Both the position numbers and the translations under genes were made by a program. Under the pieces are notes generated by a model. That model was given only the letters and a program-made list of their open reading frames with translations. It had not been told where the DNA came from and made no database searches. This document shows, piece by piece, positions 3-31,191 of a DNA stretch of 43,353 nucleotides (the first letter of the stretch is position 1; each line of letters starts with the position of its first letter). Source of the stretch: a virus; IMG/VR virus record IMGVR_UViG_3300010334_002515, positions 1 to 43,353 of that record, one strand, 5' to 3'.

Positions 3-254
3 ACTGATCAGGGTGATGAATACACTGCACACATTCCAATATACGAGGCACCTGCCGCAGTTTTTAAATTTTGGGATACAGACGAATCTCAACGATTATT
101 TAATATGGATGCCGACGGCACTGTTTATCTAGTAGATACTATTATTCCTCACGAAACAGAAAACTATGATACTACAGATAGAATAGGACTAGTGTTTAGA
201 TTTAAAAGAGATGACTTGCCCAAGTTACTAAACATTACTGGCGAAATATCATGA
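3..254 (+). CDS. 2OG-Fe(II) oxygenase-like protein, C-terminal fragment
   Basis: An open frame enters from the left edge and stops with TGA at 252-254, so only the last 83 codons are visible. The tail reads as the end of a double-stranded beta-helix: a turn with TIIPHETENY (candidate distal iron-ligand His), then a strand with DRIGLVFRF (candidate 2-oxoglutarate-binding Arg). The same His...Arg ending closes the other oxygenase-like proteins in this window. The N-terminal half with the HxD pair lies outside, so the assignment is inferred from the tail and the neighbours. Its stop overlaps the next start (ATGA), which suggests translational coupling. Confidence 0.55.
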   Translation, partial: TDQGDEYTAHIPIYEAPAAVFKFWDTDESQRLFNMDADGTVYLVDTIIPHETENYDTTDRIGLVFRFKRDDLPKLLNITGEIS

Positions 255-892
255 CTGTAATATATACTCCTATAGATATAGAATTTGATGTACCTAATGA
301 ACAAGATGTAATTGACTGGTTTCATGCTAATAAAATAACCGACAACGACTATTGGGAATATAAAGAAGGCCGACACGAATGGTGTTATGTAGCATTGCGC
401 GAAGAACCCAAGGATTGGCGATCATATCGTGCATGGTTAGATTGGGCTGAAGAACGCAAGCCAATTGACAATCCTGGCATATTCTTTTATCCTGGATTTG
501 AAGAAAAGTTTCCAGGGCTGGCAAAGTGCGTTCGAGAATTGCCGTTCGATCAAATAGGCACTAGCGGATTTATTATGCAAATAGGCACTATCCCTCCACA
601 CCAAGATGCTACCTATGATATGACCGAGCCTCGCCGCTATATTATCTATATAACTGATCCTGCATATAACACATTTCATCTTCTACACAAAGGTAAAAAG
701 ATTTGGCCGCAAATAGATCCTAAATATCGATGCTTTGCGTTCAACAATACAGACGTTGAACATGCCGCAGACCCTACCAGTAGAACTAAAATATTGTTAA
801 GTACTGTTGGTATAATGAATAAAGAAAAGCACGAAGCTTTATTAAAACGCAGTATAGAAAAATTTAAAGACAAGGTGATATATGGAGTTTGA
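251..892 (+). CDS. 2OG-Fe(II) oxygenase-like protein
   Basis: A 213-residue protein with a PPHQD segment (His117, Asp119), a distal His171 in VEHAADP and Arg178, the order and spacing of iron ligands and 2-oxoglutarate anchor in Fe(II)/2OG dioxygenases of the aspartyl/asparaginyl-hydroxylase type. Such enzymes hydroxylate an unactivated C-H bond using O2 and 2OG; the substrate cannot be read from the sequence. ATG at 251 overlaps the upstream stop (ATGA), and the 3' end overlaps the next gene by 11 bp, so it sits in a coupled plus-strand block from before 1 to 2358. It is soluble, with no signal peptide. Confidence 0.65.
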   Translation: MTVIYTPIDIEFDVPNEQDVIDWFHANKITDNDYWEYKEGRHEWCYVALREEPKDWRSYRAWLDWAEERKPIDNPGIFFYPGFEEKFPGLAKCVRELPFDQIGTSGFIMQIGTIPPHQDATYDMTEPRRYIIYITDPAYNTFHLLHKGKKIWPQIDPKYRCFAFNNTDVEHAADPTSRTKILLSTVGIMNKEKHEALLKRSIEKFKDKVIYGV

Positions 893-1571
893 ATATTATT
901 ATAATCATGTACCCGGTGAAGAGCCTAGCAGGAATAATTTAATTTATACTAGTCTTATAGATAAAAAGAAAAAGGTGTTTGTACAATGGTACTATAATGA
1001 TACGGATTATCATCAAGGACAAAATGAAGTTGTTGATCCTAAACTGATGGAAGAAAAGTTTCATAGAGAATTACATTTTTTGAGCAACATGGCTTGGCGC
1101 AATCCACATATGGTTCCAAAGATTATAGAAGTTAATGTTCCAGAGCGTAAAATATATTTGGCTATCAATGGCGAGGATTTTTGGAATCAAGCAAAATGTA
1201 GCGTTGAAAATTATGACAACGTATTGCCTGACTGGCAAGAGCAAATGTTAGCAATACTTCAAGCACACAAAGACAGAGGTTGGTATAAATTTAGTTTACA
1301 TCCTAGCAGTTACTTTATTGTAGACGGTAAATTAAAAAGTATAAATTATTTTTTTACATACAGTAGCAATGAAGGCCCTATTAGCATCGCAGATCATGCA
1401 AGTCATATATACAGTGCAAGACAAGATATTATGCGAAAACAAGTTGACGCGATGGGGTTAGACTGGGATGCTCCACAACCGCTAGATAAATTACAGCAGT
1501 TATGTTTTGAAAGTTTTAGAACAAATTATCCAGATGACTTTATAGCAAAGGCCAAAGCAATATATGATTAA
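882..1571 (+). CDS. Hypothetical protein, possibly degenerate kinase fold
   Basis: A 229-residue soluble protein, not firmly recognised. The layout recalls a shrunken protein/sugar-kinase fold: an N-terminal beta-rich part with KKVFVQWYY, a hinge-like segment (VPKIIEVNVPERKIYLAI, residues about 79-96), then a segment shaped like a catalytic loop (LHPSSYFIVDGKLKSINYFF) in which the usual HxD and DFG residues are not preserved. If the fold is right it is probably a pseudokinase or a binding protein. It lies between two oxygenase-like genes and overlaps both (11 bp and 8 bp). A gene of similar layout lies at 19582-20367. Confidence 0.4.
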   Translation: MEFEYYYNHVPGEEPSRNNLIYTSLIDKKKKVFVQWYYNDTDYHQGQNEVVDPKLMEEKFHRELHFLSNMAWRNPHMVPKIIEVNVPERKIYLAINGEDFWNQAKCSVENYDNVLPDWQEQMLAILQAHKDRGWYKFSLHPSSYFIVDGKLKSINYFFTYSSNEGPISIADHASHIYSARQDIMRKQVDAMGLDWDAPQPLDKLQQLCFESFRTNYPDDFIAKAKAIYD

Positions 1572-2358
1572 AGGAATTAATGGACAGCCGTATATAGACA
1601 TGTCTCCATATATTGATATGTGTGCATTTGATCGTTTGCAACCTGAAATACTAAGAGGCTTTGCAGATGCACGTGAATATGCTAAAGAAGGCACTTGGAT
1701 GAAACCTGCTTTTAAAATAGAGGATATGAGTTACATTCCAAATTGGAAACCTATCTATAAAGCAATTGAAGAATTTTTGGCATTGCCGGATGACAATCCG
1801 ATTAAACAAGGCGGCATTGACTTGTACAGAGATTTCCAAGATTTTACAATACGCAATAGATTTACGCGATATATCAAGATGGCTATGGGCGCATACGATC
1901 CTTACATCTATTATTTCCTATGGGAACAAGGTAGTTGGGACGATCGTGACTCACCGCGCAAACTCACACCCGAAGCTGAATATTTTCCGGGAGTAGTCAA
2001 ATGGATTGAGGATATGATCGAACATCGTATTTTTGAAAGCATTGGCAGAGTTATTTTCTTTCACTGCGAAGCCGGTGGTATTCCGTTTGAACATAGAGAT
2101 CTAGATGGCGAAAAAGGATTACAACAAGGGTATACCGATAATGTAAATGAATTCATACACATACGCCCTAACACAAAGAAACCTTTTTACCTGTGGGATC
2201 CCGAAACACGTAATCACACATATATTAATAGTCGTGCCGCATGGTGGAATGACCAAGACTGGCATGGTGGTAATCCTATTATGGAGCAAAGTTACGGTTT
2301 ACGTATTGACGGAAAATTTACAGAAGAATTTAAATTAACGATAGCCAGTAAAGGTTAG
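1564..2358 (+). CDS. 2OG-Fe(II) oxygenase-like protein
   Basis: A 264-residue protein, larger than most oxygenase-like proteins here. It carries FEHRDLDG (His177, Asp179), a distal His234 in QDWHGGN and Arg247 in YGLRIDG: the HxD...H...R set of Fe(II)/2OG dioxygenases. The N-terminal 150 residues are aromatic-rich and match nothing I recognise; they may bind the substrate. It overlaps the upstream gene by 8 bp. Its last 24 bp overlap the 3' end of the minus-strand gene at 2335, so the two transcripts run into each other. Confidence 0.65.
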   Translation: MIKGINGQPYIDMSPYIDMCAFDRLQPEILRGFADAREYAKEGTWMKPAFKIEDMSYIPNWKPIYKAIEEFLALPDDNPIKQGGIDLYRDFQDFTIRNRFTRYIKMAMGAYDPYIYYFLWEQGSWDDRDSPRKLTPEAEYFPGVVKWIEDMIEHRIFESIGRVIFFHCEAGGIPFEHRDLDGEKGLQQGYTDNVNEFIHIRPNTKKPFYLWDPETRNHTYINSRAAWWNDQDWHGGNPIMEQSYGLRIDGKFTEEFKLTIASKG

Positions 2359-2880
2359 CAAGTATTTGGGAACTAGTCCTATATTAGTTCCAGCATGCCA
2401 GCTGTGTATGTGGTTGTACTGATAGATGATTCCCTGCGGTTCATTATAATAAGCATCCTGTTCGGTAACGAATACATGTCCCGGCGCAGGTTTACTTAAG
2501 AAACAAAAAAATCTCACTAGTTCGCCTAACTGCTTGTGCTCTTCTTCCCATGGATTGATATCCCAATGCCATGGTGTACATTTACCAGGACGTAGCTCAC
2601 TGACCCAACACATCAAAGGGTTGGCATTAACAGACATACTGATGGCAAGTTCATAGTTTTTATGGAAATGCAAACCAGATTGGTAATGTCGATATTCCAC
2701 TGTATGTTCATTATATCCTGCAGAGGTCAGTGCGGCGGTTTGACTAATATACTCATTGTAGTAAGGATTAGATTCTTCCAGTGTCATGTGACCGTGACTG
2801 GGTTCAACTTTGCGTGTTTTTATTTCAGCGATTAGACTTTCACACAAAGCCCCAGTGAGCGTAGCTACATATTTTTTCAT
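2335..2880 (-). CDS. 2OG-Fe(II) oxygenase-like protein
   Basis: A 181-residue protein with TPWHWDINPW (His105, Asp107), GHVF, and then HSWHAGTNIGLVPKYLL (His162, Lys172). The ending closely matches the HGA.NIG..PR signature of the five tandem paralogues at 15468-19086, except that the 2OG-anchoring Arg is Lys here. Substrate unknown. ATG at 2880 overlaps the upstream stop (ATGA, 2877-2880), so it is coupled to the gene at 2877. Its 3' end overlaps the plus-strand gene ending at 2358. Confidence 0.65.
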   Translation of the reverse strand: MKKYVATLTGALCESLIAEIKTRKVEPSHGHMTLEESNPYYNEYISQTAALTSAGYNEHTVEYRHYQSGLHFHKNYELAISMSVNANPLMCWVSELRPGKCTPWHWDINPWEEEHKQLGELVRFFCFLSKPAPGHVFVTEQDAYYNEPQGIIYQYNHIHSWHAGTNIGLVPKYLLTFTGYR

Positions 2881-3542
2881 ATTATTTTAAACTCATTAGG
2901 TAAGATGCATTTCAACGAATTTAACTTGTCTTTTTCTATATTAAAATTTATTGTCACATTGCCGTATGAAAATTTGTTTATAAATCCTAGTTTATTTGCT
3001 TTGTTAAGCCAGGTGCTTATAGTGTTATCAAAAATAAATCTAGCATCGTCGGCATTTGCCACAGTTGAAGCTAAAGCCACGCTGACTGGATCTGTCAATT
3101 TATTCCTTTTTAGTAACTGTCTAACTACCAACTGTACTCTAGCACGACGACCAAAGTTAGTAGCAGTATGTAAAACTCCTGCATCCATGTCGTACCATAT
3201 TCCGTCTTGTACTAATTTGTGTAGTTGTGGTGTCACTAGGTCGATCAAGTAACATTGCTCGCCCAATATATTAAGATGATATCTATCATCTATATCTGCA
3301 TGTGTTTGATAGCATTGATTAGGATCCAAAATAATAATCCTCGCTTCGCCCTTCGGTACTGGCAACGAGTCATACAAAGTTTGCCAAACTGTATCTTTGT
3401 ACTCATCCTTTAATACCCACGAGTCGTAGAAGAAATCACCTGTTGACTGGTTAATCGTAGTTTTCATACCACCAGTGGGCAACGAACTACAAGCCTCTTG
3501 AAATAACTTTGAATCTACTGTATAATCTGTTTGAGTAAGCAT
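2877..3542 (-). CDS. 2OG-Fe(II) oxygenase-like protein
   Basis: A 221-residue protein from ATG at 3542. An in-frame extension to 3680 exists, but it would run through the divergent gene and does not look like protein. Motifs: YQTHADIDD (His81, Asp83), GVLHTATNFG (His125) and Arg133/Arg135, consistent with the aspartyl/asparaginyl-hydroxylase branch of Fe(II)/2OG enzymes. The C-terminal 80 residues go beyond the catalytic core and are not recognised. A CATAAATA box lies only 4 nt before the ATG and there is no Shine-Dalgarno sequence, so the message may be leaderless. Confidence 0.65.
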   Translation of the reverse strand: MLTQTDYTVDSKLFQEACSSLPTGGMKTTINQSTGDFFYDSWVLKDEYKDTVWQTLYDSLPVPKGEARIIILDPNQCYQTHADIDDRYHLNILGEQCYLIDLVTPQLHKLVQDGIWYDMDAGVLHTATNFGRRARVQLVVRQLLKRNKLTDPVSVALASTVANADDARFIFDNTISTWLNKANKLGFINKFSYGNVTINFNIEKDKLNSLKCILPNEFKII

Positions 3543-3546: not shown

Positions 3547-3554
3547 TATTTATG
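3547..3554 (-). promoter_or_regulatory. Predicted T4-type late promoter box (CATAAATA)
   Basis: Reads CATAAATA on the minus strand, one base from the T4 late consensus TATAAATA. The box is followed by TTTC and then the ATG of the oxygenase-like gene at 3542. In T4 the start site lies about six bases past the box, so the RNA would begin at or next to the start codon. A TATAAT-like sequence lies slightly further upstream (3561-3568 region), so a sigma-70 alternative is not excluded. Confidence 0.5.
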
Positions 3555-3569: not shown

Positions 3570-3576
3570 GTAAATA
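3570..3576 (+). promoter_or_regulatory. Predicted late promoter box (GTAAATA)
   Basis: GTAAATA, then AAAC, then the ATG at 3581. It sits back to back with the minus-strand box in a 38 bp divergent spacer. No ribosome-binding sequence separates it from the start codon, consistent with a leaderless late transcript. Confidence 0.45.
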
Positions 3577-3580: not shown

Positions 3581-4438
3581 ATGGAACGTATACGCATCGC
3601 AGAATCCTATGACGAAAAATGGCTAGAGTCCGAGCGGCCACAGCCGTTGATAGATAATCATATCGAAGCATTAACTGCACAAGTTGTTAAGGGTGGAGTA
3701 TTTAAGGATATTACAGATCAAGTATATATAGATTATAAAAAGGAAATGACCAGGTGGTTATTACAGTCTAAAATTAATACAGTTACAGGATTAGATGATT
3801 TTAATCGTGTAGATATTATAAACGGTTGTACACAGTTTATAGACACAGCATATATGAACGGACCTGTACAAGTCTTAGCCGGTGACTATAGATATCATGC
3901 TAGACTAGGTAATTGTTATATACATCCTGGATTCCTAAGTGAAGAAAAGCAATTAGTAATTGCTTGGCCATTTCCTAGTACAGGTGACACTCACCCAAAG
4001 ATGAAGGAGATATTAGATGAAGCGCAAGACAAGGGAATTGGTGTACATGTGGACGGTGCTTGGCTTACTTGCTGCCGCGGAATTGACTTTGATTTATCAC
4101 ATCCATCTATTAAGTCAGTTGCTATAAGTTTGAGCAAAGGACTGGGACTGGGATGGAACAGAATTGGCTTACGTTGGACTAAGAGTAAGGATGCTGATGC
4201 TGTTACAATACAAAATGACTTCAATATGAATCTTCGGGCTCCTGCTATGATCGGACTACATTTTTTACGGAATCTAGAACCGGATTACTTATGGAACACC
4301 CACAGCGATAGATACTATAAAATATGTCATGACTTTGTACTCAAACCGACTAGAAGTATATACCTAGCACTACGCAACGGACAACCGGTTGGTGTTAGCC
4401 CATTGATAAGGTATTTAGAAAATGCAAACATTTCATGA
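3581..4438 (+). CDS. Short PLP-dependent aminotransferase-like protein (fold type I)
   Basis: A 285-residue protein with the core of a fold type I PLP enzyme. It has an INGCTQFID segment (residues 80-88) like the phosphate-binding turn, HVDGAW (Asp158, the residue that normally pairs with the pyridine nitrogen) and SLSKGLGLGWNRIG (Lys186, candidate Schiff-base lysine). The family usually runs to about 400 residues; most of the C-terminal small domain appears to be missing, so activity is uncertain. It starts 4 nt after a late box and overlaps the PP-loop gene by 17 bp. It could provide an amino group or decarboxylation step for the radical SAM genes downstream; that is inference. Confidence 0.65.
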   Translation: MERIRIAESYDEKWLESERPQPLIDNHIEALTAQVVKGGVFKDITDQVYIDYKKEMTRWLLQSKINTVTGLDDFNRVDIINGCTQFIDTAYMNGPVQVLAGDYRYHARLGNCYIHPGFLSEEKQLVIAWPFPSTGDTHPKMKEILDEAQDKGIGVHVDGAWLTCCRGIDFDLSHPSIKSVAISLSKGLGLGWNRIGLRWTKSKDADAVTIQNDFNMNLRAPAMIGLHFLRNLEPDYLWNTHSDRYYKICHDFVLKPTRSIYLALRNGQPVGVSPLIRYLENANIS

Positions 4439-5150
4439 TATAGACAGTGTGCGTATTCATTTGCGCGACGACTGGAAAAATGTTGCTATCAGTGTAAGTG
4501 GGGGGGCAGACTCTGCGCTATTAGCATACCTAATATGTTCGTTAGTAACAGATCAAACTGTACATATAATTTCTCACAACCGAATGTGGAAGACTCGTCC
4601 ATGGCAAAGCTATGATAGTTTTAATGTATATACTTGGCTGTTAACAAGATTTCCAAATATTAGATTTGTAAGACATATTAATTTTATAGCACCAGACATC
4701 GAGTACGGAAATATAGGCCCTAATCTAACTGACGAGTATGGCAAAAAGGTCAGCGGTGATAATATACAACAACGTGCTTACGCAGAATTTGTTTGTCACA
4801 CTAACGACGTAGATGCATACTATAATGGTGTTACACGTAATCCTCGTCTAGCACAGTTCAATGGCATGCTAGAACGCGACATTGAACGTACCAACGATAA
4901 TGAACATTTGGAATACATGATTCACATGGGAAGAGTTGCATGCCATCCGTTTCGATTTGTAGACAAATCATGGGTTGTAAACAAATACAAAGAGTTAGGC
5001 ATTATGGATTTGTTTGACATTACACGCAGTTGCGAGGGTGAGTTTGAAGATATAAATTACACAAATTACAAAGCCGGGCAATACGTTCCCATATGTGGCG
5101 AATGTTTCTGGTGTAAAGAAAGGACCTGGGCAATTGAACAAAGCAAGTAA
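4422..5150 (+). CDS. PP-loop (N-type) ATP pyrophosphatase, QueC-like layout
   Basis: A 242-residue protein. The SGGADS motif at residues 26-31 is the PP-loop of N-type ATP pyrophosphatases, which adenylate a carbonyl or carboxylate for attack by ammonia or sulfur. The C-terminus has Cys204, then CGECFWC (Cys225, Cys228, Cys231), a four-cysteine zinc site arranged as in QueC (7-cyano-7-deazaguanine synthase), though with a longer gap between the first two. No QueD, QueE or FolE neighbour is present, so preQ0 synthesis is not supported. More likely it is an amide- or nitrile-forming or thiolating relative acting with the radical SAM genes next to it. Confidence 0.7.
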   Translation: MQTFHDIDSVRIHLRDDWKNVAISVSGGADSALLAYLICSLVTDQTVHIISHNRMWKTRPWQSYDSFNVYTWLLTRFPNIRFVRHINFIAPDIEYGNIGPNLTDEYGKKVSGDNIQQRAYAEFVCHTNDVDAYYNGVTRNPRLAQFNGMLERDIERTNDNEHLEYMIHMGRVACHPFRFVDKSWVVNKYKELGIMDLFDITRSCEGEFEDINYTNYKAGQYVPICGECFWCKERTWAIEQSK

Positions 5151-6399
5151 AACATTTTGTATGCACCCTTTTACAGGATTGGCTACTAGAGAAGACGGCG
5201 CCATACAGGCTTGCTGTCGTAGCCACCCTGTTGGTTTTATACAGCAGAACAGTTTGGAAGAAATTTGGAACAATGACACAATGAAACGTATACGTAAGTC
5301 AGTGCTTACTAACATACGTCCGCCAGAGTGCGAGCCATGTTTTAGACTAGAAGATCAGGGCGTCGAATCCTTGCGAGAACGTCATATAAGCGGTGTAATC
5401 CCCGAAGCACGGGTCAACTTGTACCCCAATGCGTTAAATGCGTTAAAAGACGATTACACTATGCCTTTTGAAATTCCTACGATGGAACTAAAGTTAAACA
5501 ATCTGTGTAACCTCAAATGCCGCATGTGTCACCCAGGAGACAGCACTAGTTGGAACGATTGGGATGTAGTAAAAAAGTACTATCAAGGTGAAGGTCAAGT
5601 TATTTTTAACATGGTTGAAGAACACGACTTAGAACGCAAGCCATTACTCGACAAGTTCAAAGATAATAAAGACTGGTGGACAAGTTTAGAAAAGAATTTG
5701 CCATATTTTAGACGTGTTGAGTTTGCCGGCGGCGAGCCTTTAATGGATCCACAGCATTATCGTATATTGGACATGCTCAAGCCATACGGGCATCAAATTG
5801 AAATCAAGTATGCTACCAATGGCACAACATTGGGAATCAAAGGTGGAAGGAATATACATGACTATTGGCCTCATTTTAGAAGTGTTGCCGTTAACGTCAG
5901 CATTGACGGCATTGACAATGTTTACAATTACATTCGCGGCAACGGTGATTGGAATCAGATTGTTACAAATATAAAAGAAATACAAACTATTCCAAATGTG
6001 AGTAGAGTAGTCGGCGCTGTAGCTGTACAAGTTGGTAATATTATGCATCTCGATAAAATGCTGAAATACTTTTTAGATGATTTAGGAATTGTATTTTATA
6101 CCAATATGGTTAATCATCCCACGGTGCTGTCAACACAGGTACTACCTGCTCATCTCAAAGAACAAGCTACTATTAATTTAAATTTTGCTAAACTCTATGT
6201 ACAAGATTACAAATTGGTAAAACAACATCCTATGTTATTAGATCTTACTCTAAAACAGATAGACGGTGTTATTAATTATATGTGGGCAAATGATCATAGC
6301 GACCGATGGCAAGATTGCATAGCATTTAATCAAGCATTGGATAAAACACGCAATCAAAGTTTCTTTGATGTTATACCGGATTTTATAGATTATGCTTAA
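5134..6399 (+). CDS. Radical SAM protein with N-terminal cysteine (twitch-type) domain
   Basis: A 421-residue protein from TTG at 5134. An N-terminal cysteine domain (FCMHPF with Cys9, Cys27-Cys28, and CEPC with Cys66/Cys69) probably holds an auxiliary Fe-S cluster. It is followed by CNLKCRMC (Cys125, Cys129, Cys132), the radical SAM 4Fe-4S motif, and AGGEPL (about 199-202) for SAM binding. The TTG is chosen because AAAGGA lies just upstream and because a short N-terminus before FCxxPF is usual; GTG at 5095 is the longer alternative. Paralogue at 9048-10460. It overlaps the PP-loop gene by 17 bp and the next radical SAM gene by 8 bp. Such enzymes often modify peptides; the substrate here is unknown. 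Confidence 0.8.
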   Translation: MNKASKTFCMHPFTGLATREDGAIQACCRSHPVGFIQQNSLEEIWNNDTMKRIRKSVLTNIRPPECEPCFRLEDQGVESLRERHISGVIPEARVNLYPNALNALKDDYTMPFEIPTMELKLNNLCNLKCRMCHPGDSTSWNDWDVVKKYYQGEGQVIFNMVEEHDLERKPLLDKFKDNKDWWTSLEKNLPYFRRVEFAGGEPLMDPQHYRILDMLKPYGHQIEIKYATNGTTLGIKGGRNIHDYWPHFRSVAVNVSIDGIDNVYNYIRGNGDWNQIVTNIKEIQTIPNVSRVVGAVAVQVGNIMHLDKMLKYFLDDLGIVFYTNMVNHPTVLSTQVLPAHLKEQATINLNFAKLYVQDYKLVKQHPMLLDLTLKQIDGVINYMWANDHSDRWQDCIAFNQALDKTRNQSFFDVIPDFIDYA

Positions 6400-20367: not shown

Positions 20368-20537
20368 TAGCACACTACAAACACAATAAAAAATACATAG
20401 AGCTTGTTACTAGCCTATATGTATTTTCTGAAGCACAATCTACAGGGTCACCTACCCATTACGATGCAACTACTTGGCAATGGGGTGACAAAACTATTTT
20501 AATTCAAGAAGTAGGAATTCATCCTGAGATTGAATAA
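20337..20537 (+). CDS. Small hypothetical protein
   Basis: A 66-residue protein of unknown function. The start is supported by AGGA four bases ahead of ATG 20337. It overlaps the upstream gene by 31 bp and its 3' end overlaps the convergent tail-fibre-like gene by 19 bp. Composition is ordinary (SKFKECNSVIAHYKH at the N-terminus, WQWGDKTILIQEVG near the end), with no membrane segment or motif. Confidence 0.5.
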   Translation: MSKFKECNSVIAHYKHNKKYIELVTSLYVFSEAQSTGSPTHYDATTWQWGDKTILIQEVGIHPEIE

Positions 20538-24098: not shown

Positions 24099-25099
24099 TC
24101 TGGACTGAATGGGATCCTTTAGAGTCAATTATTGTCGGTGACTGTTTTACCGATAGCGACCATCCTGGATTAAAAACGATCTTAAAAGAAACTAAAGAAG
24201 ATCTAAATACTCTAGCAAATTACTTAACTAGTTTAGGTATAAAAGTCTATCGACCTAACGTTGCGCATAACTCTGCAATGGCTCCTATTGTTCCAAGAGA
24301 TCAATACCTAGTGTATGGCGAAACAATATATCAAACATACACATCAATGCCTGATAGATTCAATGATAGTTTAAACTACTTAGGCATATTTAGAGAGCTA
24401 TTTCAACAAGGTCATAACTGGATCAGTCAACCGCCGCCTGTGCTTGCACCTTTAAACTCTACAGACAAGTGGTGGAATGATGGTAAGCACATCTATCACG
24501 ATCTAAACAAAGATAAAATACTGTGGCATACTGCCACCATGTTTAAATGTGGAGATGCATTAATAACTAACAAACAAGGTCCAGGAACGCTACTTGGACT
24601 AGAATGGATGAAGCGTAACTTGCCCGGTACACGTATTATTGAAAACAATAAGTGGGGCCACATTGATCACGGGTTTTTTATGATTGACGATGATACTGTT
24701 ATTTGTATCAACCAGTCTTGGGTTCCCGAAGTGTTACAATCTAAAACACTTATTGAAATTGAAGAATATATTGAAGTTTTAGATTATAGTAAAATTGTAG
24801 AATCTTTTTCTACTACCAGTGGTACACTAAGTCAAGAGTGGATAGACAAATGGCTCAACGAGTGGAAGGGGTATGTGCAAGATGTTGCGTTTGACAGTAA
24901 TGTGCTGGTAATAGATTCTAAGAATATCTTGTTCTCTAGTGAACAACCTAAGCTGTTTAATTTTTTAAAACAAAAAGGTATTACATGCCACGTAGTAAAC
25001 ATGCGTCATAGCATGTTTTGGGAAGGCGGAATACATTGCCTAACACTAGATGTTAGTCGACGTGGAGAGAAGCGGCGAGTCGTTCCTGTAACTTTGTAA
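24095..25099 (+). CDS. Glycine amidinotransferase-like enzyme (guanidino-modifying superfamily)
   Basis: A 334-residue protein with the Asp-His-Cys set of the amidinotransferase/arginine deiminase fold. IVPRDQYLVYGETIYQ (residues 65-80) is the substrate entry motif, MFKCGDALI gives Asp154, WGHIDHGFF gives His189, and FWEGGIHCLTLDVSR gives the nucleophile Cys315. Known members transfer the amidino group of arginine to an amine (glycine, lysine, inosamine) or hydrolyse it. The GGIHCLT block and PRD motif fit an amidinotransferase better than a deiminase. Its 3' end overlaps the convergent aminotransferase gene by 47 bp, the longest overlap here. Confidence 0.82.
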   Translation: MIWTEWDPLESIIVGDCFTDSDHPGLKTILKETKEDLNTLANYLTSLGIKVYRPNVAHNSAMAPIVPRDQYLVYGETIYQTYTSMPDRFNDSLNYLGIFRELFQQGHNWISQPPPVLAPLNSTDKWWNDGKHIYHDLNKDKILWHTATMFKCGDALITNKQGPGTLLGLEWMKRNLPGTRIIENNKWGHIDHGFFMIDDDTVICINQSWVPEVLQSKTLIEIEEYIEVLDYSKIVESFSTTSGTLSQEWIDKWLNEWKGYVQDVAFDSNVLVIDSKNILFSSEQPKLFNFLKQKGITCHVVNMRHSMFWEGGIHCLTLDVSRRGEKRRVVPVTL

Positions 25100-26207
25100 A
25101 ATATTCTGTATCAGCAATCAAAGGCAGTACTAACATAAGGTTATCCTGCCCATTATTCCATACTCCTATATGCAAACCGTTGTCATAGAATGTTTGTTCA
25201 GGAGTTGACTTAATATCTATATCAAACATTAATCCGTAGTTTCTAAAAGTTAACCCCATACTAGTAAAAAGTCTGGTCGCAGTATCGACAGTTGCAGTGT
25301 ATTGATTTAATAAATCTTCTGTTTCTAATATTTCTAAATATTTTAAAGTTGAATAAATTCCACTTAATGAAAATGTATAGGTGAACCCGTGTCCCAAAAA
25401 CTCATGCTTTACTACTTCGTTAACACGATCGCTTACTAGCGTAGCACTTAAAGGAAAGTATCCCCCAGTCAATGCCTTGCCCATGGTAAAAATATCAGGA
25501 TCCAACTCAGTATCGAATCCAACAAACTTACCTGTCTTGCCACCACACATGGCAATATCATCTAAAATAAAAATCACATCGTGATCTCTGCATGTTTGTC
25601 TAAGTTCTCGCCAAAAATCTTTAGTATACTGTTTAAGACCCTTATTCCACGAGCATGTTTCCATAACTAGGCAACAGGCTGTTTTAGTTTTAACAGCGTC
25701 TATTAATTCTTCTTGATTCAAAGCAATACAATTTTCAACAGGATGTTTGGTCATATACTCTAATTGGCCGATGCCGGATGTTAGGTAAGTACTTCCGTGG
25801 TAAGAATTTTTAACACCGAGTATAGTGTGCCTAGGGTTACCTTTAGCTTCGTGATATATTTTGGCTAATTTAATTGCACCCTCGACTGCGTCACTTCCAC
25901 TTAGGGCAAATATACTTCTATAACCACCAGTGATATCATATAGTTTATTTGTTAGATCTATAACTGCCTGATTAGTGGTCATGTATTCGCCGCCAGCGAA
26001 TGGATTGTCTAACATTTTATCAGCAACATAGTGTATAATGTCTTTACGATCAAATCCTAGTAAAAAACAGCCGCAGGATCCTAGACTTAAATCTATTAAA
26101 TCTTTGCCGTTTTCTACAAATCCAAATCTTGTATAATTATCAATCTTTCTTGCGTTAGAATGATCGTAGTTGTAGTTAAAAGGGAACAAGAGCTTTAAAT
26201 TTTTCAT
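25053..26207 (-). CDS. Class III PLP-dependent aminotransferase
   Basis: A 384-residue protein. FALSGSDAVEGAIKLAK (100-116) is the cofactor phosphate turn, NSYHGSTYL (134-142) the ring-stacking region, ILDDIAMCGGKTGKF (214-228, Asp216) the pyridine-nitrogen contact, and FTMGKALTGGYFP gives the Schiff-base Lys244. Class III enzymes move amino groups at the omega end of diamines or amino acids, or racemise/isomerise (GSA aminomutase). An Ala-Gly-Gly-Glu segment near residue 71 may set specificity. The ATG lies 4 nt after a TTAAATA box, so the message is probably leaderless. Confidence 0.85.
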   Translation of the reverse strand: MKNLKLLFPFNYNYDHSNARKIDNYTRFGFVENGKDLIDLSLGSCGCFLLGFDRKDIIHYVADKMLDNPFAGGEYMTTNQAVIDLTNKLYDITGGYRSIFALSGSDAVEGAIKLAKIYHEAKGNPRHTILGVKNSYHGSTYLTSGIGQLEYMTKHPVENCIALNQEELIDAVKTKTACCLVMETCSWNKGLKQYTKDFWRELRQTCRDHDVIFILDDIAMCGGKTGKFVGFDTELDPDIFTMGKALTGGYFPLSATLVSDRVNEVVKHEFLGHGFTYTFSLSGIYSTLKYLEILETEDLLNQYTATVDTATRLFTSMGLTFRNYGLMFDIDIKSTPEQTFYDNGLHIGVWNNGQDNLMLVLPLIADTEYFTKLQERLAASLHVD

Positions 26208-26211: not shown

Positions 26212-26218
26212 TATTTAA
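26212..26218 (-). promoter_or_regulatory. Predicted late promoter box (TTAAATA)
   Basis: TTAAATA on the minus strand, then CTGT, then the ATG at 26207. It shares the ten bases TAAATACTGT with the box before 31191. No Shine-Dalgarno sequence fits in the 4 nt gap. Confidence 0.45.
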
Positions 26219-26222: not shown

Positions 26223-26229
26223 GTAAATA
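26223..26229 (+). promoter_or_regulatory. Predicted late promoter box (GTAAATA)
   Basis: GTAAATA, then TGGTGTC, then the ATG at 26237, back to back with the minus-strand box in a 29 bp divergent spacer. The predicted leader is one or two bases. Confidence 0.42.
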
Positions 26230-26236: not shown

Positions 26237-28153
26237 ATGAAAAATGTCTATCTTATACAAACTGAAATTACTTCCGGACCCTCTAATGAGCACTACCTAC
26301 CATTCAGTGTAGGATGTATTTGGGCCTATGCAAACCAATTTGATTATGTGAAAAATAACTATAAATTGCAAGATGTTATTTGGCGGAGAGATAGACAAAA
26401 AAATGTAATTGAAAAGATCATCGACCCTAGTATCATTGGATTTAGTTGCTACGTATGGAATCATAAATGGAATCTAACCTTAGCTAAGAAATTAAAAGAA
26501 CGTTTTCCAAACTGTCTAATAGTGTTTGGTGGTCCTAGTGTTAATGAAGAATGGCTCAAATACGATTTTATCGATGTTGCAATGTTTGGCGAGGGAGAAG
26601 TTGCATGGGCTAATCTTTTAAAGATGAATCTTAATAACGAGACTATTCCGAGATATTGGAATAACCCGAGACAAACAGATATTGAAAATTATCCTAGCCC
26701 TTACACTACAGGGTTCTTTGATAAAATTATTGCAGACAATCCAGATATTAGTTGGTTTATGATGCTAGAAACTAACAGAGGATGTCCTTATCACTGTACG
26801 TTTTGCGGCTGGGGAGCCGACTATCTTAACAAACTAAAAAACTTTAACCTACATAGGGTTGAGGAAGAAATCAAATGGGCTATAACACATAACATACATT
26901 GGATGTTTGTGATCGATGCTAACTCAGGTATAATGAAAGAACGTGATGTCGAAGTAGCGTGGATGATCCGCAGAGCTATAGAAGCACCCAACAGCAAAAT
27001 TAGACGTGTAACCTTTAACCATGCTAAAAATTTAAATGAGCATTGTTTTGAAATGGAAAAGATTATTCAAGCATGGACTTACGGTTTAGAAATGGCTATA
27101 CAAAGCATGCACCAGCCCACACTAGATGCTGTGAAAAGAATTAACATGGGTATGAACAATTTAGAACGTGCTTATGCCTTATGCCGTAAACACGGTATTA
27201 GATACTACACAGAGATGGTTTTAGGTTTACCTTTAGAAACCAAGGACACTTATATTAATGGCCTAATGAGATTAATGGAATTAGGACAACACGACAGCGT
27301 TAAAACTTATCCTGCTACTGTTATTCCTAATAGTGAAATGGACAGTGAAGAGTATAGAAACAAATACGGAATTAAGTTGATATATCCTAAAGATATGTAT
27401 CGTAGTCCCGAAGAACGCATATGGGACGACGAAGATAGTAGTCATGAAAATATTGCCATGGTGTCGAGCACAAATACTGCTACCAGCCAAGATATTGCAG
27501 ATTCATTAGCGTACAGTTGGATGATGAGTCAATTTCATTATTTAGGAATAACACAACTTACTTCACGGTACTTGTATGAAATGCATAATGTTCCATACCG
27601 TCAATATTATGATGCATTATACAACGCAATTAAGAACGACATTATAGGCGGTCCTATACTAAATGATGTAGAAGAAATATTTGTAAATTATTTCACTTAC
27701 GGTGAAATGCCTGTAGGTGAAAAATGGAAGAACGTAGTTGCATTGACTATGCCCGAAAGTTACGGTATGGACGATATATTTGAAAACAAGAATCATTTTA
27801 TAGACCTCGGAGTTACCGTTGGAAACTTATTTCATACTATAGATCCAAGTGTCATAGAATTACAGTATGCTTTTATGTTGGATGAAAGCAAATCATATCC
27901 ATTCATTCTAGAATCAGATATAGATATTGATAGATGGGAACGTTTATCATGCTCATATTCGGTTAATAGGCGTTACATGGTTAGTCACATGCATGACCAA
28001 ATGTATCAAAAATATTTGCTTAAAACTGATATTGCAAATATTAATAATCCTTATGTTGAAACCGACATAGAAGATTCATATAAAGGCAATAAGATCTCAG
28101 TCATTCCTATTTTACCTATACCTACAACTACCGCTAGTGGGAGAGTTATGTAA
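26237..28153 (+). CDS. B12-binding-domain radical SAM protein
   Basis: A 638-residue protein. Residues 1-150 form a cobalamin-binding-like Rossmann domain (KNVYLIQTE, IIGFSCYVWN, LIVFGGPSVNEE, MFGEGE); the DxHxxG His ligand is not evident, as in many class B members. The core has NRGCPYHCTFCGWG (Cys183, Cys187, Cys190) and an AIQSMHQPTLDAVKR-type strand typical of B12 radical SAM enzymes, followed by a roughly 230-residue C-terminal extension. Class B enzymes methylate unreactive carbon or phosphorus, or rearrange carbon skeletons. Its stop overlaps the next radical SAM gene by one base (TAATG). Confidence 0.82.
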   Translation: MKNVYLIQTEITSGPSNEHYLPFSVGCIWAYANQFDYVKNNYKLQDVIWRRDRQKNVIEKIIDPSIIGFSCYVWNHKWNLTLAKKLKERFPNCLIVFGGPSVNEEWLKYDFIDVAMFGEGEVAWANLLKMNLNNETIPRYWNNPRQTDIENYPSPYTTGFFDKIIADNPDISWFMMLETNRGCPYHCTFCGWGADYLNKLKNFNLHRVEEEIKWAITHNIHWMFVIDANSGIMKERDVEVAWMIRRAIEAPNSKIRRVTFNHAKNLNEHCFEMEKIIQAWTYGLEMAIQSMHQPTLDAVKRINMGMNNLERAYALCRKHGIRYYTEMVLGLPLETKDTYINGLMRLMELGQHDSVKTYPATVIPNSEMDSEEYRNKYGIKLIYPKDMYRSPEERIWDDEDSSHENIAMVSSTNTATSQDIADSLAYSWMMSQFHYLGITQLTSRYLYEMHNVPYRQYYDALYNAIKNDIIGGPILNDVEEIFVNYFTYGEMPVGEKWKNVVALTMPESYGMDDIFENKNHFIDLGVTVGNLFHTIDPSVIELQYAFMLDESKSYPFILESDIDIDRWERLSCSYSVNRRYMVSHMHDQMYQKYLLKTDIANINNPYVETDIEDSYKGNKISVIPILPIPTTTASGRVM

Positions 28154-29313
28154 TGTTAATGGGCTTTAATCAAACTAACATAGACCGATTACTAGCAAGT
28201 ATAAATGGTACAGTTTTAGATCCAACAGTAAGCCTATGCCATCATTGCCATAGACATATACCAGCATGGCGCTACCATAAAGATAATCAGGTGTTTATAG
28301 CCAAGTCATGTCCCATACATGGTATTAGCCATCATATGATCGAATCTGACTATGAGTTTTATGCTAATCTATATTACACCCAGGATAATCCAGATTTTAA
28401 TTTTAATGGCGGAGTACTTATCGAAGGTAGTGACCGCTGTAATTTAGAATGCCCACATTGTTACCATTTACCAGAAAACGATGCCCGCGACCCTTCTATA
28501 GAAGAATTGCTCGATCAAATACGAGATATGCCGGTAGGCGAGGATGGAGTACATAGAATCATCCTCGCCGGTGCTGAAAGTACCTTACGCAAAGACTTTC
28601 CAGAATTGATAACAGCTATCCGTGAGTTAGATCCCGAAATGGATGTTAGTGTAATGACTAATGGCATACGTTTCAATGACAGCGATTTTATTCATAAATG
28701 TGTTGAAGCTGGACTTGCAGGTGTTAACATTGGGCTTAATCATCCAAGTTACATCGATCACGAAACTGTAAGACGTAAACAAGTTAGTGCTATTGAAAAC
28801 ATGCACCGTGAAGATATCAAGATAGGTTACATTAGTTATACTATGGTAGACTTCAGTGAGCTTGATTACATACTAACTGAGATTACTAGTAATCCTTGGA
28901 CTCCTAAAAATTTCCGCATACGTAATGGTGCAGAAATAGGACGTAATGCCAGCACCGAACAACCGTTTGTTAGCAACTTATACAAACGTGCGGAGCAATG
29001 GTGCAAGGATCATAGTAAACAGTTTGAACGAATCATAGAAGCAGACAATAATATCTATCATGTTATGGTTAAGATTGAAGATAAAATTGTGCGATTAATC
29101 AGCTGGTGCGATGAAACCAATATTGATATGGAAGAATTGCGTAGCGGACCTTGGTGTAACTTTGTACCCGACGGTATTACAAACTTCTTACATCAGATTA
29201 TACGCAGAGATGTGTTTAAAAATAAAGGACTAGCCTTACCGGATAGCCCTCCTAGTCGATATAAATTTAATCGCACACCCGATAAGTCAAAACTTAATTT
29301 GCTAAATCTATAA
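28153..29313 (+). CDS. Radical SAM protein with N-terminal zinc-finger-like domain (Tes/MJ0619-like layout)
   Basis: A 386-residue protein. The N-terminus shows LCHHCHRHIPAW (Cys29, Cys32) and KSCPIHG (Cys53, His56), a rubredoxin-like metal knuckle seen in the radical SAM family that includes archaeal tetraether-lipid synthase and MJ0619 relatives. The core motif is CNLECPHC (Cys96, Cys100, Cys103). C-terminal cysteines (SWCDE, GPWCNF) may bind a further cluster. Family members join or methylate alkyl chains or pterins. The target here is unknown. It is coupled to the B12 enzyme by a one-base overlap. Confidence 0.75.
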   Translation: MLMGFNQTNIDRLLASINGTVLDPTVSLCHHCHRHIPAWRYHKDNQVFIAKSCPIHGISHHMIESDYEFYANLYYTQDNPDFNFNGGVLIEGSDRCNLECPHCYHLPENDARDPSIEELLDQIRDMPVGEDGVHRIILAGAESTLRKDFPELITAIRELDPEMDVSVMTNGIRFNDSDFIHKCVEAGLAGVNIGLNHPSYIDHETVRRKQVSAIENMHREDIKIGYISYTMVDFSELDYILTEITSNPWTPKNFRIRNGAEIGRNASTEQPFVSNLYKRAEQWCKDHSKQFERIIEADNNIYHVMVKIEDKIVRLISWCDETNIDMEELRSGPWCNFVPDGITNFLHQIIRRDVFKNKGLALPDSPPSRYKFNRTPDKSKLNLLNL

Positions 29314-29650
29314 AGCCATTTGACCTATCAAGGAATTTAGTTTTAATATTTAAAATATTAAACTTATTCAAAACTTTAACAACATCTGGTACATTAAATT
29401 TTTTACAACTATAAACATCTAGTTGTATTAGACCAGTATCCCAAGTGTGCATGACAATATGACTAGTAGTTATAGCCATGAGTGCTGTGTATCCTTCGTT
29501 ATCTAAAACTTCTGATCTATAGACATATGGCCCTCCTAGTATTTCCATGTCAATAGTTGATACAATATCTAGTAGAATGTTTTTAACATCTAATTCAGAC
29601 AATTGTGTTTCAGCAGTACCTTGTATTAATAGGTGCAAATGATCTAACAC
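29294..29650 (-). CDS. speD: SpeD-like S-adenosylmethionine decarboxylase family protein
   Basis: A 118-residue protein from GTG 29650, which has GGAAG six bases upstream inside the previous gene. Ser63 (pyruvoyl precursor), His68 and Cys82 fall at or within one residue of the catalytic positions of the short bacterial SpeD chain, in TTSHIVMHTWDTG and LDVYSCKKFN. The residue before the cleaved Ser is Thr instead of the usual Glu. SpeD is frequent in T4-type marine phages, and part of the family has shifted to ornithine or arginine decarboxylation, so the substrate is open. No SpeE-like aminopropyltransferase is seen nearby. Confidence 0.8.
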   Translation of the reverse strand: MLDHLHLLIQGTAETQLSELDVKNILLDIVSTIDMEILGGPYVYRSEVLDNEGYTALMAITTSHIVMHTWDTGLIQLDVYSCKKFNVPDVVKVLNKFNILNIKTKFLDRSNGFIDLAN

Positions 29651-30244
29651 TTAAGGCTTCCTTCCTATGATCATGTAACGTGTGTACAGGGGTAATTTCA
29701 TTTCGCCGCCCCAAAGAAAATGTAATCCACAAGTTTCCTTAAATTCATCAAATGATTTATGCCACCGCACATGCTCGGGGATATTATAATCATTACTTTG
29801 GATAATAATCAAACTACCGTTAGGCATTCTATCCAACCATTTATCGTATTGTGCTTGTGTTAAGTGTTCACAGCTAGTATTAATAATAATATCTGCAACA
29901 GAAATTACATCGCACATATCTGCCGTATACGCTTTGAACCGACCTTCAATTTCTTCACCCTTGTTCATTAGCGTAGCAATAGGTTCGCAGGTTGGATCAA
30001 TGTCAATACTGCGAATAGTAGTAATGGGAATGTTGCTCTGAAATAACATGCTGGCAAGTGTACCAACCCAGCCGCCGAAGATGTCTATGCTAGATGCAAA
30101 ATGCACATGCTCATCTAGACAATCAATCAACCATTCTTTGCTTTTTAATTGCCCCGACCAAAAGGCATCCATAGTACGCATAGGGTCCGGGCTTTGACGG
30201 ATGGCCTGCATCCAATGGTGTAAATGGTTTGTATCTATCTGCAT
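29651..30244 (-). CDS. Class I SAM-dependent methyltransferase-like protein
   Basis: A 197-residue protein with a Rossmann SAM-binding layout: SIDIFGGWVGTLAS (glycine-rich loop, about residues 52-65), RSIDIDPTCEPIA (acidic end of beta2, Asp80 region), AYTADMCDV (about 105-113) and ADIIINTSCEHLT (motif IV). The glycine loop is unusual (GGWVG for GxGxG) yet the rest is well kept. Target unknown. It overlaps the upstream radical SAM gene by 10 bp, and its stop abuts the SpeD start. Confidence 0.68.
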   Translation of the reverse strand: MQIDTNHLHHWMQAIRQSPDPMRTMDAFWSGQLKSKEWLIDCLDEHVHFASSIDIFGGWVGTLASMLFQSNIPITTIRSIDIDPTCEPIATLMNKGEEIEGRFKAYTADMCDVISVADIIINTSCEHLTQAQYDKWLDRMPNGSLIIIQSNDYNIPEHVRWHKSFDEFKETCGLHFLWGGEMKLPLYTRYMIIGRKP

Positions 30245-31191
30245 TTTGGTATCTTGCTGTCCGCACTACTAACACATCTAGTAGTCACGCATTTTTGTGG
30301 CACAGAAAACAAAGTAAATTTTTCTATCGTGCCCAGTGCGGCTTCGTGGCAACTGTAAGCACGTTTGACTTCCGTACCTTTTATTATAACACTCTGATAA
30401 CCTGCATTACAAGTCCAATTGGCAAATTGATTAAACCCCAGTGCATTAAACCGTTCTGCTTGATCTATAAAATAATTTTTATCACCATCCATTAAACGGA
30501 TTTGATAACCTTCCTGCTGTTCAAAATCGTTTTGCATTATATCAACCATCTCAGCTGTGTAGCCTTCCACTATGGCGGTGGCACTGTCATTGCTTTGTGG
30601 TTTAAGTGTTACATTAATTCCACGAGCTCGAAATCGTTCACAGCGTTCTAGTGTTTCAAAGAACAGTTCTGGCACCATAACTTGATTAACAGTTACATGA
30701 ACCCGCTCGTTCATTAACTGTAAACACTTGTCACCGAACTCGTGCTCCTTGGCGAACTCTGCATGAAAGCTGGCTGTAATACTGCGGCGCTGTAGACAAT
30801 CAGTGATGCTACACCAGTTTTTCCACCAGCTGGGTCCCGGACTCAAATTGGTAGTCATATGTATACTTTGGTAGGGACTTTCTAATTCATCTATATGTTT
30901 GATCAATTCGGGCAACTGTTTGTACGCAGTAGGTTCACCTCCTGAGAAGCTCCAGTGAAATTGGGTGAATCCGTTCAAACGAGCTTGACGTTTTATCTCG
31001 TCGACTGTAGTCTTATAGACTTCTAAACTTTGGTAATCCAAATTGTCGCTTCGGGCATAGGGCCAACAATAGCTACATTTGTAATTACAAAATCTACCTA
31101 GGATCCAACTTATGTTAAATAATGGGCGATCCAACATTGTTTGTTGCCCAAAATGCGTTATGTCTTTGAAAGGAATGATTGCGAAGTTCAT
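30235..31191 (-). CDS. Radical SAM protein with SPASM-like C-terminus
   Basis: A 318-residue third member of the family at 6392 and 8065. CNYKCSYC gives Cys35, Cys39 and Cys42; SGGEPT binds SAM; the ending NWTCNAGYQSVIIKG with later cysteines (YSCHEAA, KCVTTRC) parallels its relatives, though the final CxC is spaced differently. It is the first gene of a minus-strand block with a methyltransferase-like gene and SpeD. A GTAAATA box lies six bases before the ATG. That start codon also overlaps the -35 element of the divergent tRNA promoter. Confidence 0.78.
   Translation of the reverse strand: MNFAIIPFKDITHFGQQTMLDRPLFNISWILGRFCNYKCSYCWPYARSDNLDYQSLEVYKTTVDEIKRQARLNGFTQFHWSFSGGEPTAYKQLPELIKHIDELESPYQSIHMTTNLSPGPSWWKNWCSITDCLQRRSITASFHAEFAKEHEFGDKCLQLMNERVHVTVNQVMVPELFFETLERCERFRARGINVTLKPQSNDSATAIVEGYTAEMVDIMQNDFEQQEGYQIRLMDGDKNYFIDQAERFNALGFNQFANWTCNAGYQSVIIKGTEVKRAYSCHEAALGTIEKFTLFSVPQKCVTTRCVSSADSKIPKCR

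Follow-up and report, generated by a model that had tools for sequence, protein, structure and literature searches.

Radical SAM, 2-oxoglutarate oxygenase and PLP enzyme genes form a recurrent core with a mosaic shell in an island of IMG/VR phages

The viral record IMGVR_UViG_3300010334_002515 (a complete linear record of 43,353 bases, called the window hereafter) carries an island of tightly packed genes, g01–g39, with hardly any intergenic space. The island is rich in radical S-adenosylmethionine (rSAM) enzymes, 2-oxoglutarate (2OG) oxygenase-like proteins and pyridoxal phosphate (PLP) enzymes. Comparison with related phage loci resolves it into a core of about 14 genes (g03–g10, g12–g14, g22, g38 and g39), arranged as two or three sub-blocks, and a shell of mosaic composition that differs strongly among phages. 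It is very likely that the island represents some form of late pathway, dedicated and co-conserved. The fuller reading, that of a late modular tailoring pathway whose substrate is a virion surface or fibre component, is a tentative one that we hold at less than even confidence; the tailoring substrate (a fibre or a glycan being favoured), the product, the order of the steps and the purpose are what we infer beyond the gene content. The window is included, with 5 mismatches, at positions 187,770–231,122 of a longer record of 265,680 bases, IMGVR_UViG_3300028393_000019 (G002 hereafter), which allowed the island to be viewed in its genomic setting.

Viral contigs were scanned for five anchor genes, which provided 23 loci for the halogenase-like gene g30, 34 for g36, 76 for g09, the best 80 of 93 for g04 and the best 80 of 589 confirmed stretches for g39. 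Co-occurrence was counted by tblastn of all window proteins in loci that extended 5 kb or more to either side of the anchor, keeping one locus per near-identical anchor (40/76 for g09, including the locus of G002 itself, 46/80 for g04, 20/80 for g39, 8/34 for g36 and 8/23 for g30). The adjacency, fibre-position, motif and precursor analyses used the 166 of 293 loci that remained after removal of near-duplicates. Around g09 (n = 40), g06, g10 and g13 were each found in 39 loci, g14 in 38, g03 and g38 in 34, g05 in 33, g04 in 32, g12 and g22 in 30, g39 in 27, g08 in 25 and g07 in 24, and the number of other island families per locus had a median of 13 (minimum 0, maximum 21). An earlier note, made from the sequence of the window, had taken the density of enzymes as the sign of a dedicated pathway. 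This holds for the core, for which homologues scattered singly are not what related phages show, but the outer genes are mosaic (g17–g21 in one or two of the 40 g09 loci and the halogenase-like g30 in none), and part of the reported density is this shell.

The other anchors returned overlapping sets of partners. In the g04 loci (n = 46), g03 was present in all 46, g05 in 39, g13 in 37, g06 and g09 in 34, g10 in 31, g36 in 26, and g38 and g39 in 6 each. Near g39 (n = 20) the counts were 20 for g38, 18 for g10 and g14, 17 for g13, 16 for g09, 15 for g12, 12 for g07 and 11 for g06, with g03 (5), g08 (4), g05 (3) and g04 (2) being rarer, and near g36 (n = 8) g35 was found eight times and g33, g34, g38 and g39 six times each. 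Further, certain genes lie within two genes of one another time and again: g09 and g10 in 101 loci, g38 and g39 in 77, g03 and g04 in 66. Gene order is partly fixed, as judged from 34 listed loci and the adjacency counts, and runs g06 (−), g07, g08, g09 and g10 (+), then g12, g13, g14, g38 and g39 (−), often followed by g40, g41, g43 and g44. A g39 profile matched all 16 long records, which had been obtained via g30, g36, g09 or g04 and none via g39; these records hold 7–17 rSAM matches each, and A-type Fe-S carriers occur in six of them, with two in G002.

The late timing proposed in the earlier note is backed by a late-type motif, TAAATA, at strand-switch starts, and its conservation in relatives makes the proposal a plausible one at the level of sequence. 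TAAATA is the core of the T4 late promoter, the consensus of which is TATAAAT (PMC3037559). In G002, TAAATA lies within 60 nucleotides (nt) upstream of 17/60 structural genes (3.7 expected), 23/70 genes of the 120–172 kb region (4.2 expected), 9/40 island genes overall (3.5 expected) and 3/56 early-type small open reading frames (ORFs; 1.5 expected). Between −60 and +120 at strand-switch heads it is found in 9/11 island, 4/5 structural and 1/18 early cases. In the heads of relatives (up to 60 nt upstream) it precedes g39 in 35/36 cases (3.4 expected), g06 in 66/74 (12.3), g07 in 39/42 (9.2), g08 in 27/36 (8.8), g36 in 23/26 (6.3), g22 in 15/16 (3.8), g14 in 14/20 (3.5) and g13 in 15/24 (5.0), and at internal genes of relatives it is mostly under expectation (g09 0/97, g38 1/96, g10 4/105). 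The fibre gene family F21 carries it in 36/36 cases, the first opposite-strand gene, F13, in just 3/58. As the motif is present at heads and mostly missing at internal genes, it looks like a promoter and not like a ribosome signal, and we infer that it may serve as one in the island heads. No excess of sigma-70-like sites over shuffled sequence was seen. Upstream of island genes, TAAATA is as frequent in antisense (10/40) as in sense (9/40) orientation, which is ascribed to divergent gene pairs sharing their upstream space.

The motif also stands unusually near the start codon. It ends no more than 9 nt before an in-frame ATG in 41/42 cases for g07, 72/78 for g06, 28/30 for g08 and 53/62 for g39, typically at 4–6 nt, and Shine-Dalgarno-like sequences between the two number 0, 4, 1 and 0, respectively. 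The families of g13, g14, g22 and g36 are mixed, with TAAATA close to the ATG in about half. F21 forms a second, longer-leader class, with a median of 32 nt between motif and ATG and a Shine-Dalgarno-like sequence in 35/36. If the promoter-to-start spacing of T4 applies, many head mRNAs would be predicted to be leaderless or nearly so.

Coordinates and individual assignments are collected in Table 1. All eight proteins that the earlier note had called rSAM (g09, g10, g12, g13, g14, g35, g36 and g39) were confirmed, seven of them above the Pfam cut-off. The remaining one, g35, is below the cut-off for Radical_SAM (25.6 of 29.5 bits) and above it for B12-binding (35.8 of 32.1), and scores 155 bits with a KedN5-type B12-rSAM model that has a cut-off of 700. 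The three Cys residues of CxxxCxxC are invariant in the g09, g10, g13, g14 and g39 families. With NF033640 (N_Twi_rSAM, cut-off 170 bits), g14, g39 and g12 reach just 43, 33 and 29 bits. The thirteen candidate 2OG-like proteins are of unequal standing: eight are supported by profiles (g05, g06, g16 and the g22 family, that is g20, g21, g22, g23 and g25), four (g01, g02, g04 and g31) by an HxD...H motif that is invariant or nearly so across relatives, and g18 by motif only. Among PDB profiles, g06 matches a beta-hydroxylase (7v4f, 2e-18) and L-proline cis-4-hydroxylase (6e-5), and hhalign relates the g22 family to g06 (probability 92.7). The same comparison gave a probability of 0.5 for g04 with g06; g04 had no match among PDB profiles, and PDB profile searches with g07, g08 and g38 likewise yielded nothing useful.

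The other enzymes reported fared differently from one another. The nitroreductase g17, the short-chain dehydrogenase/reductase (SDR) g26, the halogenase-like g30, the aminotransferase g34 and the SpeD-family g37 are above Pfam cut-offs, g07, g08 and g33 are supported by conserved motifs, and g38 is methyltransferase-like by motif only. In the PDB, g30 matches PrnA (2e-56) and VirX1 (9e-53). The WxWxIP motif of flavin-dependent tryptophan halogenases was not seen in g30, the likely site of which reads GWRFKIGV by eye. The three SGNH-like assignments (g11, g19 and g24) are motif-based, with a sub-cut-off Pfam trace in g24 alone. An AlphaFold2 (AF2) model of g03 with a predicted local distance difference test (pLDDT) score of 93.6 matched kinases in Foldseek (2.6e-6) and compared with VIA at Z 12.8 (root-mean-square deviation (rmsd) 3.4, 185 aligned), consistent with a protein-kinase-like fold; alignment A1, read by eye, shows the catalytic Asp of the HxD loop replaced. 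For g15 (pLDDT 93.9) a GT-A-like fold is limited to residues 1–223; it compares with the PBCV-1 capsid glycosyltransferase (VIA) at Z 10.6 (157 aligned, rmsd 3.3), has close structural relatives in uncultured phages, and shows by eye no evident DxD metal motif in the consensus of alignment A7.

Table 1. Genes, late-type motifs and tRNA gene of the island, in window coordinates
Feature	Position	Strand	Evidence and remarks
g01, 2OG-like, cut by contig end (209 aa full length in G002)	3..254	+	near-invariant H126, D128, H176, R186; Asp_Arg_Hydrox 0.014, sub-cut-off
g02, 2OG-like by motif	251..892	+	invariant H117, D119, H171; no Pfam match
g03, protein-kinase-like fold, core	882..1571	+	structure model; usual catalytic Asp replaced
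g04, 2OG-like by motif, core	1564..2358	+	invariant H177, D179, H234
g05, 2OG oxygenase-like, core	2335..2880	-	invariant H105, D107, H162; hhalign to g22 family, probability 99.8
g06, 2OG oxygenase, core	2877..3542	-	invariant H83, D85, H127, R137; PDB profile matches; start re-called by hand using family alignment
g07, PLP-enzyme-like (fold type I by motif), core	3581..4438	+	invariant D158, S185, K186, R194; no Pfam match
g08, PP-loop ATPase with QueC-like Cys motif, core	4422..5150	+	invariant SGGADS, C204, C225, C228, C231; PHROG QueC-like 1.1e-4 (weak)
g09, N_Twi_rSAM radical SAM, core	5095..6399	+	NF033640 333.6 of 170 bits; invariant C138, C142, C145
g10, radical SAM, core	6392..7288	+	Pfam 1.7e-14; invariant C24, C28, C31
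g11, SGNH-like, motif only, shell	7221..8078	+	sequence reading; no Pfam match
g12, radical SAM, core	8065..9051	-	Pfam 1.5e-12
g13, N_Twi_rSAM radical SAM, core	9048..10460	-	NF033640 378.1 of 170 bits; invariant C164, C168, C171
g14, radical SAM with SPASM-like tail, core	10453..11544	-	Pfam 3.2e-7; invariant C18, C22, C25
g15, GT-A-like fold	11569..12714	+	AF2 model and structure comparison
g16, Asp/Asn beta-hydroxylase-family 2OG oxygenase, adjoins g15	12707..13447	+	Pfam 1.1e-9, 38.7 of 22.6 bits
g17, nitroreductase, shell	13450..14142	+	Pfam 2.3e-7, above cut-off
g18, 2OG-like, motif only, shell	14126..14710	+	sequence reading; no Pfam match
g19, SGNH-like, motif only, shell	14707..15471	+	sequence reading; no Pfam match
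g20, 2OG oxygenase-like, g22 family	15468..16175	+	invariant H102, D104, H154 in family alignment A14
g21, 2OG oxygenase-like, g22 family	16159..16698	+	alignment A14
g22, 2OG oxygenase-like, core family	16695..17219	+	alignment A14; in 30/40 g09 loci
g23, 2OG oxygenase-like, g22 family	17222..17776	+	alignment A14
g24, SGNH-like, shell	17763..18554	+	Pfam Lipase_GDSL 0.022, sub-cut-off
g25, 2OG oxygenase-like, g22 family	18532..19086	+	alignment A14
g26, short SDR	19076..19585	+	Pfam Epimerase 4.3e-6, above cut-off
g27, no family assigned	19582..20367	+	no Pfam or PHROG match
g28, small ORF	20337..20537	+	relatives in loci L030, L037, L040
g29, tail-fibre-like domain	20519..21490	-	fibre-like q227: 38.6% identity in 114 aa (2e-17); nothing in Pfam or PHROG; start re-called by hand
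g30, flavin-dependent Trp-halogenase-like, shell	21531..23099	+	Pfam 3e-93 (313.6 of 21 bits)
g31, 2OG-like by motif, shell	23084..23692	+	H124, D126, H180, R190 invariant, n = 4 sequences
g32, no assigned function, precedes g33	23682..24098	+	PHROG 10325 2e-25; relatives in 25 cyanophage records
g33, pentein-type amidinotransferase-like	24095..25099	+	invariant H189, H314, C315; homology to CP220 gp086
g34, class-III aminotransferase	25053..26207	-	Pfam 2e-44
g35, B12-binding radical SAM, KedN5-like	26237..28153	+	B12-binding 7.8e-9
g36, radical SAM with HMPTM-type Zn ribbon	28153..29313	+	Pfam 9e-18 and 5e-13
g37, AdoMet decarboxylase (SpeD) family	29294..29650	-	Pfam 2e-12
g38, methyltransferase-like by motif, core	29651..30244	-	39 invariant columns, 25 sequences; nothing found in Pfam, PHROG or the PDB
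g39, radical SAM, strongly conserved core	30235..31191	-	Pfam 1.6e-12; 70% mean column identity, 19 sequences
TAAATA	3571..3576	+	4 nt before g07 ATG
TAAATA	3547..3552	-	4 nt before g06 ATG (placed by hand)
TAAATA	11559..11564	+	4 nt before g15 ATG
TAAATA	26212..26217	-	4 nt before g34 ATG
TAAATA	26224..26229	+	7 nt before g35 ATG
TAAATA	31198..31203	-	6 nt before g39 ATG
tRNA-Pro(ggg)	31226..31321	+	right edge of island

By PHROG, G002 carries a terminase, a tail sheath, a UvsX-like recombinase and a DNA helicase, and of its 30 tRNA genes 27 lie at roughly 174–180 kb; it is read here as a probable T4-like jumbo phage. The left end of the island lies upstream of the window, at about base 187,394 of G002. 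The GC content is 0.373 in the island vs 0.426 in the rest of G002, and the shift adjoins the tRNA-Pro gene. Eight of the nine rSAM matches in G002 fall inside the island, for which the probability of at least 8 of 9 in 31.6 of 265.7 kb is 3e-7, the region having been picked beforehand in the earlier note. To the right of the island, sequence reading finds a peroxiredoxin-like (40642–41169), a ClpP-like (41172–41762) and a DNA-ligase-like gene (42598–43353), as well as g43 (32414–32641), which reads as IF-1-like, has a PHROG match of unknown function and belongs to a family present in 40 dereplicated loci. Elsewhere in G002, q186 (154,358–156,271) reads as a DnaK-like chaperone and matches, at 3e-268, a phage family for which no function is listed, and ARAGORN places an asterisk-marked, doubtful tmRNA with an unusually long tag at 172,470–172,886 (L066).

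Fibre genes are frequent neighbours of the island. In the dereplicated loci, 42 fibre-like genes were listed (37 of family F21 and five of the g29 family, with G002 counted twice); for all 42, a gene of the island list lies no more than four genes away, and in 33 three or more of the four neighbours on one side belong to that list, which also takes in families found beyond the window (desaturase-, GNAT- and sulfotransferase-like and others). At the left edge in G002, the fibre-like q227 is followed by sulfotransferase-like, desaturase-like and GNAT-like genes, as identified by sequence reading, and then by g01. The single structural gene that had been evident in the window, g29, has no family match, but it resembles q227 (Table 1).

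The island is not the only stretch of this kind in G002. A second chemistry cluster at 32,553–48,430 (L059, L060), beside tail-fibre genes, contains four further Trp-halogenase-like genes at 32.5–47 kb. Ten other proteins of this cluster were scanned, with matches to 2OG-FeII_Oxy for five (three above the cut-off), JmjC for one and DUF6445 for one, and no match for three; more 2OG-like proteins and a NUDIX-like gene were noticed by eye. The cluster is preceded by three Gly-rich genes, and the one scanned matched tail fibre families. TAAATA was found at 3/20 of its genes (0.9 expected) and at 0/2 heads. Halogenase matches are found in 5/16 long records, so the trait is not universal.

Based on these observations, the core (the N_Twi rSAM enzymes g09 and g13, the rSAM enzymes g10, g12, g14 and g39, the 2OG-like g04, g05, g06 and g22, the PLP-like g07, the PP-loop protein g08, the kinase-fold g03 and the methyltransferase-like g38) would work one after another on a single late product of the phage. 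The best candidate for this product is a protein of the virion surface, for instance the tail-fibre-like one whose gene often lies at the left edge of the island. The rSAM steps could form C–C, C–S or methyl bonds and the 2OG enzymes could hydroxylate, while g15/g16, g38 and the sulfotransferase-like, GNAT-like and halogenase-like genes of the shell may decorate the product; turnover of the shell would then change receptor chemistry between phages. The fibre is favoured as substrate because of the position of the island, its late-type control, the twitch/SPASM type of its rSAM enzymes and the parallel with Aeromonas phage 332-Vera considered below. A bolder version is speculative and on balance unlikely: a phage-specific, late post-translational pathway acting on receptor-binding fibres, in which the stable rSAM/2OG core would provide the scaffold and the fast-changing shell the decoration, adhesins would be diversified by enzymes rather than by sequence, and the heads would be expressed from leaderless or near-leaderless late mRNAs.

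A target in a glycan or in the envelope comes close behind the fibre, given the genes of GT-A-like, SGNH-like, sulfotransferase-like and amidinotransferase type and the neighbourhood of the g33 relative in the cyanophage S-SCSM2R. Taken as a whole, synthesis or alteration of a glycan or lipid of the host envelope (for example, against superinfection), or of a glycan carried by the virion, is an explanation of low probability, somewhat below that of the fibre. The GT-A-like g15 adjoins the hydroxylase g16 in 30/39 loci, the island contains SDR and aminotransferase genes and SGNH-like motifs, and its sulfotransferase-like and desaturase-like neighbours would suit such a role. The g33 relative of S-SCSM2R adjoins KdsA and KdsB, and that of CP220 adjoins two sugar-transferase-fold genes. 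However, the island yielded a single recognisable GT-like gene, neither a sugar-nucleotide pathway nor a flippase is among the Pfam matches, and peptide substrates are more frequent for twitch/SPASM rSAM enzymes.

A diffusible small molecule derived from amino acids or a peptide, with antibacterial or signalling activity, is unlikely. The mixture of rSAM, 2OG, halogenase-like, PLP and PP-loop proteins does resemble biosynthetic clusters, but neither a non-ribosomal peptide synthetase or polyketide synthase nor an exporter is among the Pfam matches of the window, and no conserved short ORF was found in the gaps. A ribosomally synthesised and post-translationally modified peptide with a local short precursor was considered and rejected, the best family of gap ORFs of 18–79 aa being found in three loci; longer, overlapping or distant precursors were outside this search. 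Island DNA outside ORFs of at least 80 aa makes up 1.1% of 1.97 Mb.

It is very improbable that the core enzymes modify nucleic acid, be it phage DNA or tRNA. The PP-loop protein g08 is QueC-like, and known hypermodification routes include rSAM, PLP and flavoenzymes, but late-type expression fits such a role poorly. A thymidylate-synthase-family gene, present in 4/16 long records, is missing from G002 (QueD, QueE, FolE and DpdA were not searched for), and with this marker missing, thymine/cytosine hypermodification was rejected. Least probable of all is unlinked cargo gathered without a joint pathway at a plasticity site near fibre genes, for which the low GC content, the strong variability of the shell between phages and the distance of g09, g10, g13 and g14 from g36 in most g36 loci could be cited. 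Co-occurrence in 24–39 of the 40 g09 loci, repeated adjacency and the conservation of promoter-like motifs reject this reading for the core, and it is retained for the shell.

It should, however, be noted that several observations count against a late fibre-tailoring pathway. The fibre-position count has no control and its loci were fetched around island genes; most of the 166 show no F21 in view. Fibre loci are insertion hot spots, so that adjacency need not mean function. The GT-A-like, SGNH-like, sulfotransferase-like, desaturase-like, aminotransferase and amidinotransferase genes suit glycans, lipids or small molecules equally. Late control rests on a six-base motif, which g30 lacks, which g39 has in 24/44 internal cases as well (5.7 expected) and which is near expectation at g03 heads (20/61, 13.4 expected) and g04 heads (10/34, 6.5 expected). 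TAAATA was chosen after the upstream sequences of the island had been inspected, with the relatives as an independent check, and two longer motifs opposed late control: the T4 octamer TATAAATA is not enriched (10 exact copies in G002 and one in the island, with 1.2 expected by length), and [GCT]ATAAATA has 29 start-linked matches in G002 (4.4 expected at random) and one in the island. Around g39 (n = 20), flanking genes from outside the island are equally constant (g41 and g43 in 17, g44 in 16) and g04 is found in just two loci; within 10 kb of g36 (n = 8), g09 is found once and g10, g13 and g14 never; and the number of other island families around g30 (n = 8) ranges from 0 to 24. Flanks of 10 kb never span the whole island, and a gene not seen near one anchor may still be carried elsewhere by that phage. 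The choice of anchors inflates the number of island-like loci, yet it leaves the recurrence of the same partner genes unexplained.

Crowded rSAM genes in phages are already in print. The Campylobacter phages CP220 and CPt10 are described as having clusters of five rSAM genes with a putative glycine amidinotransferase in an interchangeable module, with 11–12 rSAM genes per genome (PMC2853527). The likeness to CP220 extends to homology: the g14-family profile matches gp080, gp083 and gp084 (2e-27 to 4e-29), the g10-type profile matches gp081 and the g33-family profile matches gp086 (3.7e-53), so that several rSAM genes and an amidinotransferase gene occur there with homologous enzymes, and baseplate-lysozyme-like and PAAR genes lie a few genes upstream of the module. 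CP220 differs in that two of its stretches gave no profile match at 1e-4 for 2OG, g03, g04, g07, g08, g38 or the halogenase and 3.5e-6 at best for g09, that its module is about one third the size of the island and that its host group is another. The T4-like ocean genome TARA_ERS488813_N000010 has 12 rSAM genes and an A-type Fe-S carrier (PMC5332604), the rSAM genes being reported, in the part of that account used, as a gene count under Fe-S metabolism. Aeromonas phage 332-Vera has eight rSAM genes within a structural cluster with five tail-fibre genes (PMC12390700); it belongs to the Chimallinviridae and, unlike G002, is not T4-like. Both are likened to the island by their published descriptions only. 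Cyanophage accessory genes include 2OG oxygenases, a PrnA-like halogenase and SpeD (PMC3037559). Phage halogenases share 27–34% identity with g30 among the best 30 of 77 records. VirX1 is a viral halogenase of known structure (PDB 6qgm).

In 50,697 phage records, g09, g04, g38 and g39 found no match at 1e-5, g10 matched 28 at 1e-3, many of them Campylobacter phages, and g36 matched 15 Campylobacter phage records; the matches of both are weak, and none covers more than 80% of the length. Cellular relatives of g09 occur in at least 42 loci by profile, the full-length ones at 24–29% identity, and a scan of ten neighbours found no shared partner. Two bacterial contigs, L314 and L317, carry tandem N_Twi_rSAM-like arrays of about seven and five genes, in which no other core genes were detected beyond weak rSAM cross-matches. 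The g07 profile matched 0/299 genomes of one phylum and 0/5 in a second search, both run without a positive control. Judged by titles and opening sections, no paper describing this cassette was found. In the literature found in this way, as far as it was consulted, the large core of 2OG, rSAM and PLP enzymes together with its late-type motif was not described; a smaller rSAM–amidinotransferase form is already published.

Phages are seldom regarded as carriers of large tailoring pathways, and this island recurs in many IMG/VR phages; four of the five core genes searched in the phage records had no match there and the fifth partial ones only. The enzyme classes of the island are prized for hard chemistry, and the conserved core offers a defined gene set for expression and testing. 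A small molecule as its product would make the island a viral route to a natural product, and a product located on the virion would add a means of diversifying receptors.

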